This document shows positions 41,219 through 45,213 of a stretch of DNA of 64,000 nucleotides, one piece after another. This stretch comes from Chitinophagales bacterium (GTDB taxonomy: Bacteria > Bacteroidota > Bacteroidia > Chitinophagales > Chitinophagaceae), in assembly GCA_013297995.1 (NCBI GenBank), contig JAAFJB010000005.1:1-64000 (forward strand). The letters are read 5' to 3'. Made by a program: the position numbers and the translations under genes. Under the pieces are notes generated by a model. It was given only the letters and a program-made list of their open reading frames with translations. It searched no databases and was not told where the DNA came from. Positions within the stretch are counted from its first letter, which is position 1. Every line of letters begins with the position of its first letter.

Positions 41219-41797
41219 TTAGACGATCACATTGGCGGCATAATTATCGATAAGAAACTCATAGGCATCGCCAAAGAGGTCAATTTGGTTCTAGTAAAAC
41301 TCTCCAAAATTTAATTCTTCCACACCTTTCAAAACGGATGATAAACGGCTGTTTTTTCCTTCAAGAGTATTACCCAATCGGGTACTTGTTGTATCAAAAT
41401 CGGCAAACAATCCTTTTATATCTGATTCGGATGGGTAGCCATTTGCTGAACTTTCAATAGCATCAAAAATGGCTTTTAAGTCTGTATTTAGATTTGGGTT
41501 TGTATTGGCAGTTTTGGCAACATTTACAAAAAGTTGACTTGGATAAATAAAATATCCTTTCGTTTTAATGGCATCATCTCTTATTTCGGGTGTTATTACG
41601 CCATCCAATAATTTTGTATAGTTAATGCTTTCATCACCACCTTCAATATAATTAGTAAAGTTTTCACTAATAAAGCAATAGAACAGCGTTCCTAATACAA
41701 ACTGTTTAAAATCCCATCCATCAACAGAGCCACGAACATCGTTGGCTATTCTCCATATTTTAGCTTGTAATTCTGCTCTTTGTACTGTGCTTGTCAT
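41219..41797 (-). pseudogene. hsdM: Type I restriction-modification HsdM, N-terminal remnant with in-frame stop and 3' loss
   Basis: HsdM_N sequence to NFGEFY, TAG at 41291-41293, then same-frame NQIDLFGDAYEFLIDNYAANV; catalytic region absent. Confidence 0.88.
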
Positions 41798-42053: not shown

Positions 42054-43103
42054 GTGAAAAAAATAAATACCCTTTCATCTGCTCGTATTCGCCAACAATT
42101 AAAATACGATTTAATTGGTAAAGATTCTTATCGTGGCATCACTCTGAGTTATGCTTATTTGGCCAACCAAACTGGTCACTTTGCTTTGGCTTTTGCGCCC
42201 GCAGCGGGCTTGTTCATCATATTAAAAAACCATACTACTCTTGCTGATCCCGGATTATGGTCGGGCCTTATTTTTACACTGCTTTGGGTGGGCTTTGAAC
42301 TGTATAATATTTCAGTGCAATTAAAAGAAGCTAAGCAATCTAAGCAACCCTATATTTTTAAACCCGACTATAAAAATATTATTACCGATACTTTAATTGA
42401 TATGGGTTATTTTGCCCTAGGTGGATTAACATTTGCTGCGGGTGCCACTTCCTTATATGCCCATTGGTTTTTTATACTGCCCATTTTGCTTTTCTTTTTT
42501 TTATTGTATATCAGCCGCTCTTGGTATATCACTAAAATTTGCCAGCAAACGGCTTTTTACCCATATCAGTTAAGGCTAAGTCAATGGAAGCACGCTATTA
42601 GTGAATCTGATAAAAAAATAGTAGAACAATACCTTAAAGCAGATAATAAAGGCCATCATATATTGCTGTTTGGACCGCAACAAAGCGGTAAAACGGGATT
42701 GGCGGTTGCAGTAACCAATGAACATTCCATTCATAGAAAAAAATGTTTGTACCTCACGGGAACCAAACTATTTGCGCAGCTATACGATGCTAACGAAGTA
42801 CTTTTTGCAGAAGATGCATTTGCTTTATGTACTTGGCGAACAGCCGATTTTCTGGTTATTGACGATATCAACCCTGGTGATCCTATTTGGGATGAAACCA
42901 TTACAGCCGATTTATTTTTAAAACATTTAAATGCCAGGCCAGAAAATGCAATGGCATTACAGCAAAGAAATATTATTTGGGTATTGGGTAATAATACTGA
43001 AAGTGATTTAAAAAAAGACTGGACTAAACTTTTAAAATCCATATCCATTAAACCTGAAAATATTCATGCCATTCAACTGGGTAACTCTATTAGGGTAAAA
43101 TAA
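42054..43103 (+). CDS. Membrane protein with C-terminal P-loop NTPase domain, unknown (GTG start)
   Basis: About four hydrophobic helices, then Walker A GPQQSGKTG and Walker B-like DFLVIDDI. Confidence 0.65.
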   Translation: MKKINTLSSARIRQQLKYDLIGKDSYRGITLSYAYLANQTGHFALAFAPAAGLFIILKNHTTLADPGLWSGLIFTLLWVGFELYNISVQLKEAKQSKQPYIFKPDYKNIITDTLIDMGYFALGGLTFAAGATSLYAHWFFILPILLFFFLLYISRSWYITKICQQTAFYPYQLRLSQWKHAISESDKKIVEQYLKADNKGHHILLFGPQQSGKTGLAVAVTNEHSIHRKKCLYLTGTKLFAQLYDANEVLFAEDAFALCTWRTADFLVIDDINPGDPIWDETITADLFLKHLNARPENAMALQQRNIIWVLGNNTESDLKKDWTKLLKSISIKPENIHAIQLGNSIRVK

Positions 43104-43827
43104 AGTTTTCATAAGCAAAACTAATTAGTTGGGGCAGACTATTTACTTCAAACCTTCTATATAAAGGATGAATACGTTTTTCAACAGCCGATTGCGAAAC
43201 CCCATTTTTGTCGGCAATTTCTTTAAATGAAAGTCCACTTGCAATGTATGAGATGGTTTCTTTTTCTTTTTCTGAAATAGCTATATGTTTAAACAAAGCC
43301 TTATTCAAAGCTTCTTCAAATTCTTCTCTGTCTGGCCCATGCGATGAATACCGAATTACTTTACCAAATCTTAATCCCCTATTAATTTGAAATCTTCCAA
43401 TAGCTTCTTTAACGCTGCCATTGCTTTCTACACTGTATACACCCAATTTTACCATCATGGGTATAAGGCTCCCATTTTTATGGATTTTATTAATTTCCAT
43501 CGTAATAAAATACTCCAGCAATTGATGGTTTCTGCTGAGGATGAATTTTACGGCATTGTCGTTTAAATCATAAGCAAAGGGGGCATGTAAAGGATCGGTT
43601 TGTTTTACAATAGTGTGTAAGTCAATATATTGATCTTCATAGCCCAAGGTTTCTTCCCAACCAGCCGCATAAATAAGTCTGTTTTCATGAAAAGAATATA
43701 TGTAAACAGCTTCTTCGGGAAAGCGATTGATGGTTTTACTAAAATTAGTATACTCCTCACTAAAAATATCAATGGGTACTTTGGTGACTAGTTTTGGGGT
43801 ATTATACTCGGTTTGTTTATCTTCCAT
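43090..43827 (-). CDS. LuxR-type transcriptional regulator with PAS-like sensor region
   Basis: Start MEDKQTEYN; C-terminal HTH ISEKEKETISYIASGLSFKEIADKNGVSQSAVEKRIHPLYRRFEV. Confidence 0.85.
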   Translation of the reverse strand: MEDKQTEYNTPKLVTKVPIDIFSEEYTNFSKTINRFPEEAVYIYSFHENRLIYAAGWEETLGYEDQYIDLHTIVKQTDPLHAPFAYDLNDNAVKFILSRNHQLLEYFITMEINKIHKNGSLIPMMVKLGVYSVESNGSVKEAIGRFQINRGLRFGKVIRYSSHGPDREEFEEALNKALFKHIAISEKEKETISYIASGLSFKEIADKNGVSQSAVEKRIHPLYRRFEVNSLPQLISFAYENFILP

Positions 43828-43857: not shown

Positions 43858-43875
43858 ACTGTGTAAAGACACAGT
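43858..43875. promoter_or_regulatory. Candidate operator (inverted repeat)
   Basis: ACTGTGT-AAAG-ACACAGT, perfect 7-4-7, upstream of the LuxR gene and touching the -33 element of the candidate sRNA promoter. Confidence 0.5.
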
Positions 43876-43905
43876 TGACTGGTGTTAATATTAAAGTTAG
43901 TTTTG
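43875..43905 (+). promoter_or_regulatory. Bacteroidetes-type promoter driving a candidate ncRNA
   Basis: TTG (43875-43877), 20 bp, TAGTTTTG (43898-43905). Confidence 0.6.
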
Positions 43906-43910
43906 ATTTT

Positions 43911-44066
43911 TATAAAAAACGAATAAATAGTAAAAAATCTAATTTATTCTTCAGTTTTACAATCCAATTTCTGAAAAACCGACTCTCTCTCTCTCTATTT
44001 TATTCAATAACTATCGGGGGGTAGTTATTCATTGGGTCGCATTTCGCAAGAAATGCGACTTTTTTT
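43911..44066 (+). ncRNA. Candidate small RNA, about 155 nt
   Basis: Consensus promoter upstream; stem-loops at 43921-43949, 44006-44029 and 44036-44059; T7 at 44060-44066; no plausible ORF. Confidence 0.55.
44036..44066 (+). terminator. Strong intrinsic terminator of the candidate sRNA
   Basis: GTCGCATTTC-GCAA-GAAATGCGAC followed by T7. Confidence 0.85.
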
Positions 44067-45144
44067 ATACCCTATAACAAAAGGCATTAATATTCATCCC
44101 AGCACCCACAGAGGCAAACATCACAATATCTCCAGGTAAAACTTCGTGATCTGGTATCATTCCTTTACTAACCAGATTGTACAATGTTGGAATAGTAGCC
44201 ACTGAGCTATTACCCAGCTTATGTATGCTCATGGGCATGATATGGGGAGGAATTTCTTTTAGGCCATATAGTTTGAACAATGCTTTAATAAAGCCCTCAT
44301 CCATTTTTTCATTGGCTTGATGGAGAAAAAATTTTTTTACTTCGCTTACATGAATTCCGCTTTTATCTAAACAGGCTTTCATAGCCAAGGGCACGTTTTT
44401 AAGCGCATATTCATATACTTTTCTACCCTTCATTTTAATGAAACGAACAGAAGGGTCTGCATTCGGCAAATAGGATTTACCCATAGAAATATAGTGAAGT
44501 TCATCGGTACAGTGACTTTGCATGCTTGAAGCAATAATTCCGCTGCTGTTCTCATTGCCTGGTACCGCCTCAAGTACGGTAGCACCAGCTCCGTCGCTAA
44601 AAATCATGCTATCACGGTCGTATTGATCAATTACCCTACTAAGGGTTTCAGTACCAATTACCAATACTTTTTTGGCCAATCCTGCTTTAATAAAAGCATC
44701 TGCTTGGGTTACCCCTAAAATCCATCCCGGGCATCCAAACAATACATCATATGCCACACAATTTGGGTTTTTAATTGCCAATGCATGTTTTATATGTGAT
44801 CCCAGAGAGGGTACAGCATCAGACTGGATGGTATTTTTATATACATTCCCAAAATTTTGGGCTACGATAATTTGGTCGAGGCTTTCAGGATCTATTCCCG
44901 CATTTTTAATGGCAATTTTTGCAGCAAGGGCACCCATATCTGCCGCTGTTAAATCATTACTGGCATAGCACCTTTCTACAATACCAGTTATGTCTTTAAA
45001 CTTTTCTATTATTTCAAGAGAAGGGGTAGTAATAGGCTGTTCATCTTCGGTATAAAAAACCTGCCCTTTAAAATCTGTATTGAGTTTGGTTTGAGTGGGA
45101 ATATAACATCCAGACCCTGTTATAACGGTTCTTATTAATTGCAT
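44065..45144 (-). CDS. Ketoacyl-ACP synthase III family protein (second KAS III-like gene in window)
   Basis: VLFGCPGWILG, LHQANEKM, KLGNSSVATIP. Confidence 0.88.
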   Translation of the reverse strand: MQLIRTVITGSGCYIPTQTKLNTDFKGQVFYTEDEQPITTPSLEIIEKFKDITGIVERCYASNDLTAADMGALAAKIAIKNAGIDPESLDQIIVAQNFGNVYKNTIQSDAVPSLGSHIKHALAIKNPNCVAYDVLFGCPGWILGVTQADAFIKAGLAKKVLVIGTETLSRVIDQYDRDSMIFSDGAGATVLEAVPGNENSSGIIASSMQSHCTDELHYISMGKSYLPNADPSVRFIKMKGRKVYEYALKNVPLAMKACLDKSGIHVSEVKKFFLHQANEKMDEGFIKALFKLYGLKEIPPHIMPMSIHKLGNSSVATIPTLYNLVSKGMIPDHEVLPGDIVMFASVGAGMNINAFCYRV

Positions 45145-45175: not shown

Positions 45176-45213
45176 AATATTAAAAGGGATTGCATGCAAT
45201 CCCTTTTAATATT
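45176..45213. terminator. 38-bp perfect palindrome, probably the terminator after manC
   Basis: AATATTAAAAGGGATTGCA|TGCAATCCCTTTTAATATT downstream of the manC stop. Confidence 0.7.

Follow-up and report, generated by a model that had tools for sequence, protein, structure and literature searches.

The plus strand between positions 43910 and 44066 of the window, by which we mean the whole 64,000-nucleotide stretch of DNA that was analyzed, almost certainly carries an independent small RNA gene, and it is likely that this gene is under the dedicated control of a PAS-LuxR regulator encoded divergently from it. The genome is that of a freshwater, Sediminibacterium-like member of the Chitinophagaceae. 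To our knowledge, and judging by Rfam and the papers searched, the RNA is undescribed and part of a widely distributed regulator-RNA unit. The features of the locus are as follows:

43090-43827, minus strand: PAS-LuxR transcription factor with its start codon at 43827 (GerE domain, E 1e-7), the proposed activator
43858-43875, no strand: palindrome ACTGTGTAAAGACACAGT abutting the -33 TTG, a probable LuxR binding site
43875-43905, plus strand: Bacteroidetes sigma-A type promoter as read from the sequence, with TTG at 43875-43877, N20 and TAGTTTTG at 43898-43905
43910-44066, plus strand: candidate small RNA of ~157 nt
43921-43949, plus strand: 5' A/T stem GAATAAAT/ATTTATTC, part of which is kept in the nearest relative
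43950-43975, plus strand: middle hairpin with stem TTCAG/CTGAA and loop UUUUAnnAUCCAAU; other members of the window's subgroup have it with different stems
43983-43996, plus strand: (CT)7 tract, not conserved
44006-44029, plus strand: G-loop hairpin AATAACTA..TAGTTATT with a CGGGGGG loop (loop UCGGGGGG), the conserved and covarying core of the family
44036-44066, plus strand: intrinsic terminator GTCGCATTTC-GCAA-GAAATGCGAC (44036-44059) followed by T7 (44060-44066), with compensatory changes
44065-45144, minus strand: KAS III-type beta-ketoacyl synthase, the convergent neighbor, outside the conserved unit except in the nearest subgroups

A sequence-only reading had described the TTG-N20-TAnnTTTG promoter, the A/T and G-loop stems, the (CT)7 tract and the terminator, and every one of these elements was found where it had been placed; the palindrome at 43858-43875 and the further hairpin at 43950-43975 had not been mentioned. 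With TTG some 19-20 nt ahead of TAnnTTTG, the -7 consensus (PMC9723704), the locus matches a Bacteroidetes sigma-A promoter, and the RNA start at 43910 is deduced from the position of the -7 element. Folding of plus-strand positions 43908-44068 gives -36.7 kcal/mol compared with -19.4 +/- 3.3 kcal/mol for dinucleotide shuffles, none of which (0 of 200) was as stable (z = -5.3). In a 3-kb scan, the terminator at 44036-44066 was the strongest on the plus strand. As had been claimed, it serves neither flanking gene because both luxR and the KAS III-type gene lie on the minus strand; its T run and the stop codon of the latter overlap. No tRNA was found, no Rfam family scored above the gathering threshold for the window locus or its relatives, and the 76-aa frame overlapping the candidate RNA had no match in Pfam.

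Three further features of the surroundings deserve mention. A stand-alone 168-aa protein encoded at 41291-41797 consists of an HsdM N-terminal domain only. The gene at 42054-43103, convergent with luxR, encodes a protein of 349 aa in which a membrane-like N-terminal part precedes a region weakly matching an IstB-like ATPase, and a gene end resembling it adjoins luxR in three related genomes (G082, G031 and G124). Finally, a strong inverted repeat, AAAAGGGATTGCATGCAATCCCTTTT, lies between two minus-strand genes at 45176-45213; its position is kept in relatives and it is probably an ordinary terminator.

The layout from promoter to terminator is kept in relatives. In G011 and other genomes of the same genus, the same pair of genes flanks a shorter spacer, which retains TTG-N20-TAAGTTTG, a UCGGGGGG-loop hairpin and a T6 terminator, all on the same strand as in the window. 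Three architectures can be distinguished, namely RNAs of ~70 nt (G011, G070, G072, G073 and others), of ~100-190 nt (the window, G082, G081, G124 and G097) and of ~300 nt (G123, G093, G090, G104 and G064). Conserved are the G-loop hairpin, the terminator and the upstream operator, plus the middle hairpin within the window's subgroup, where its stem reads TTCAG/CTGAA, TTCTG/CAGAA or CCCCG/CGGGG around the same loop, a compensation read from the sequences. The window's A/T stem and (CT)7 tract lie outside the core, where the RNA evolves fast.

Compensatory base changes among relatives, which the sequence-only reading had proposed as a check, are present in both the G-loop hairpin and the terminator (11 sequences). 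When 22 sequences from small RNAs and 3'UTRs were aligned, 95.5% of the cells of the G-loop stem were paired and 44 were double-changed, and the covariation score was 0.72 as opposed to 0.26 +/- 0.03 for shuffled alignments and no more than 0.18 when the pairings were slid; tests of this kind may overstate significance where sequences are related. One loop base of L053 is missing from alignment A2; alignment A4 and model R2 were made with unedited sequences. Taken together with the conserved promoter, hairpins and terminator, these changes bear out the proposal of an independent, undescribed and apparently non-coding transcript divergent from the PAS-LuxR gene.

The G-loop hairpin also occurs elsewhere. 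The loop pattern TATYGGGGGRTA is commoner than its reversed control in Sediminibacterium genomes, and most of the copies outside genes are G-loop hairpins immediately ahead of terminators. Such hairpins were observed ~14-87 nt past the stop codons of three gene families in Sediminibacterium, straight before the terminators: behind a gene for a WG-repeat-like protein (L280, L289, L291, L297), behind a second conserved gene (L282, L288, L290, L295, L307-L309, L314, L237) and behind a gene for a NarL-type response regulator (L294, L231), the names WG-repeat-like and NarL-type being read from sequence. L315 likewise belongs to these 3'UTR copies. In the window's own genome, the covariance model finds three places: the small RNA, the NarL 3'UTR and a second 3'UTR. 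Outside the genus, matches to model R2 were at chance level, except for two LuxR-linked matches in a single other genus (G237, G380). Family-wide matches below ~43 bits to model R1, which comprises hairpin and terminator, were dismissed as generic terminators. In one intergenic region (L304, G116:C173), two copies of TATCGGGGGGTA face each other ~77 bp apart.

The link to the regulator is provided by the palindrome, the conserved form of which is CTGYG-N6-CRCAG. In the window's genome, the palindrome with its TTG has one exact match, the site at 43858. Palindrome and TTG-N20-TAnnTTTG at fixed spacing occur exactly once per genome in 22 of 147 Sediminibacterium genomes, always ~30-120 bp from an independently found luxR and with 0 control matches; most of the 147 genomes do not contain the luxR-promoter-RNA unit. 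Among relatives available in culture, Sediminibacterium salmoneum NBRC 103935 (L126) carries it. Across 266 other Bacteroidia genomes, a single stray match was obtained. We also inspected the upstream regions of 79 PAS-LuxR genes from Sediminibacterium, Pedobacter, Chitinophaga, Tenacibaculum, Wenyingzhuangia and Polaribacter: 73 have palindrome and promoter with two or fewer mismatches at 16 specified bases (none in 58 cases, one in 13, two in 2), and the reversed-pattern control never came closer than three. The LuxR protein probably binds this palindrome, whose distance to luxR varies and whose distance to the divergent promoter is constant; this points to the divergent promoter as the one regulated. 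In G116, a genome without luxR, the hairpins are kept, the operator was not seen and the promoter is decayed; this orphan copy of the RNA hairpins lies at L014 (G116:C47).

The regulator itself combines a PAS domain with a LuxR-type helix-turn-helix (HTH). PAS_3 was found in 12 of 15 orthologues, and the AlphaFold model (pLDDT 87) of the window's LuxR shows a PAS fold joined to a LuxR HTH. Foldseek matched this model to 3clo, 7dwm, 6ugl and 6ide, the best matches over nearly the full length being the Bacteroides PAS-LuxR protein 3clo, then VqmA of phage VP882 and that of V. cholerae. Their TM-scores are modest, between 0.34 and 0.50, and a different domain arrangement is the probable reason. 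In hhalign with the phage VqmA, 58 columns of the HTH alone were aligned; similarity over the full length is seen by fold only.

What lies behind the promoter differs between lineages. At 17 Pedobacter loci upstream of luxR (L109, L110, L116-L120, L123, L127, L133, L134, L137, L138, L144-L146, L149), the LuxR-type promoter is followed by an ORF of 31-45 aa with one hydrophobic stretch, e.g., MYLKNINKSYVTRYSILILKVIAVILFIFCFYQAAKISS. Differences in the subset compared number 174, 92 and 386 at the three codon positions, and codon pairs comprise 268 synonymous and 193 non-synonymous cases; this preponderance of third-position changes argues that the membrane microprotein is probably translated. 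No ORF of this type exists in Sediminibacterium. In the LuxR tree, the ORF-bearing Pedobacter sequences form one supported group, and G-loop loci are spread over several parts, with Flavobacteriaceae (Aquimarina) included by inspection. In Chitinophaga and Wenyingzhuangia (L143, L150, L152, L158, L165-L174), the putative divergent luxR transcripts appear to be conserved per clade; no G-loop and no element in common with the G-loop RNA was established for them. As far as can be read from these genomes, much of the Bacteroidota has kept a LuxR-linked promoter switch, with a product that varies between a structured RNA and a tiny membrane protein.

Could the hairpins be minus-strand structures, located either in the leader of the luxR mRNA or at the 3' terminus of the KAS III-type mRNA, with an incidental plus-strand promoter? 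Both neighbors are read from that strand, its fold is also stable (z = -4.0), and around 43915-43949 it offers an A/T stem followed by T6. However, the T run, the TTG-N20-TAnnTTTG motif and the G-rich loop are all oriented to the plus strand and conserved together, the G loop of the 3'UTR copies is on the sense strand, ahead of a sense terminator, and the KAS III-type gene does not adjoin the unit in other subgroups, all of which leaves this origin very improbable. We give just as little credence to a cis-antisense RNA that would control the KAS III-type gene by overlapping the 3' end of its mRNA: the overlap of the terminator T run with the stop codon in the window speaks for it, but the unit persists where the KAS III-type gene is located elsewhere (L046, L047, subgroup C and other genera).

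An even smaller probability is assigned to a protein-binding DNA palindrome or repeat element that acts without being an RNA. Operators can be inverted repeats and the hairpin does recur in its own genome, but its loop is strand-asymmetric and stands nearly always straight before a terminator, its flanks are unrelated, and its stem varies with compensation. The least probable explanation is a short mRNA for an undetected microprotein, for which the Pedobacter membrane ORF behind the same promoter and the small ORF (qtip) in the corresponding position of VP882 provide precedents. Against it, the window's RNA contains no ATG ahead of the terminator stem, some relatives are just ~70 nt long, and a conserved ORF, which the sequence-only reading had named as counter-evidence, does not exist in the Sediminibacterium RNAs.

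An independent small RNA remains the preferred reading, and most likely a ligand-sensing PAS-LuxR protein would activate this dedicated RNA, which would act through its G-loop hairpin. A small molecule would probably be bound by the PAS domain of LuxR, a LuxR dimer would sit on the palindrome, centered ~43 nt ahead of the RNA start, and would from there activate the sigma-A promoter. The presumed transcript, whose length ranges from ~70 nt in the shortest relatives through the window's 157 nt to ~300 nt in another subgroup, would end in the G-loop hairpin and the terminator and act in trans via the former. Pairing through the CU-rich linker, as originally suggested, is unsupported because the (CT)7 tract is not conserved: it is missing in the closest relative (G082, LuxR 89% identical) and in all other members examined, and we have discarded the idea. 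GA-rich ribosome-binding sites would in any case be a poor target since Shine-Dalgarno sequences are described as naturally missing in Bacteroidetes (PMC6847099). The G-loop may instead be a contact surface for an RNA-binding protein common to hairpin-bearing 3'UTRs, or it may serve as a pairing loop. Simple pairing to start regions lacks support, as the loop complement ACCCCC was not enriched before ATG over the reversed-pattern control in ten genomes; the closest loop complements in the window's genome are further copies of the hairpin. The odds between the two options are about even, and we lean slightly towards recognition by a protein because the loop-closing pairs are near-invariant and the hairpin is present in 3'UTRs.

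We also put forward, tentatively and as a possibility that we consider somewhat improbable as a whole, a phylum-wide ligand-sensing PAS-LuxR circuit in the manner of VqmA-VqmR, in which one conserved promoter would drive a small RNA or a membrane microprotein depending on the lineage and in which the Sediminibacterium RNA and the 3'UTR G-loops would form one post-transcriptional regulon, for example by competing for an RNA-binding protein. In a phylum without Shine-Dalgarno sites and with few characterized small RNAs, a PAS-LuxR protein that has its own RNA or small-ORF target across the Bacteroidota is a candidate, open to testing, for a circuit of a comparable kind based on a small molecule, and specialists could directly test both the replacement of a small RNA by a membrane microprotein downstream of the same promoter and the occurrence of the G-loop hairpin in the small RNA as well as in mRNA 3' ends.

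Among known systems, a dedicated regulator divergent from its own small RNA is familiar from SgrR-SgrS/SgrT and GcvA-GcvB of enterobacteria, and SgrS additionally encodes a small protein; these systems differ from ours in their regulator families, their dependence on Hfq and their unrelated sequences. Within the Bacteroidota, GibS and FopS of Bacteroides thetaiotaomicron have intrinsic terminators, FopS has sigma-ABfr promoters, and a sequence element is common to several loci, one member being 3'UTR-derived (PMC11697453). These features are shared with the present RNA. By description, FopS consists of a single-stranded 5' R1 seed followed by the terminator, whereas the core here is the G-loop hairpin; a transcriptional regulator of FopS is not known, whereas the adjacent PAS-LuxR is proposed here. 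Rfp18 of Flavobacterium psychrophilum, with predicted stem-loop pairing, is likewise described as a conserved structured small RNA of the same phylum, but a link to LuxR is not reported for it (PMC9723704).

The closest parallel is the quorum-sensing pair VqmA-VqmR of Vibrio, in which VqmA activates the small RNA gene vqmR from the operator GG-N6-CC (PMC8284805), with the phage homologue activating the small ORF qtip; VqmA-VqmR has been described as restricted to vibrios and VqmA as the only known receptor for DPO, the producers of which are widespread (PMC12802170). Differences are evident: the operator CTGYG-N6-CRCAG does not conform to GG-N6-CC, sequence similarity between VqmA and the present LuxR is detectable in the HTH only, the RNA has no match in Rfam, and vqmR lies upstream of vqmA in the Vibrio locus, written vqmR-vqmA (PMC10426928), whereas regulator and RNA are divergent here. 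On the other side, a regulator with a PAS domain and a LuxR-type HTH (GerE, PAS_3, AlphaFold model) adjoins a short RNA or small ORF that it activates in the VqmA systems and presumably also here, and the promoter of this target contains a palindrome. In phage VP882, a 79-aa gene, which we take to be qtip, is divergent to the regulator gene, as in our unit. The alternation between small RNA and small protein in the VqmA systems also has its counterpart in Sediminibacterium and Pedobacter. Since its operator is a different one, and homology in the PAS domain and the ligand would both need proof, we do not count the unit as a member of the VqmA family; by analogy, it may work like VqmA-VqmR.
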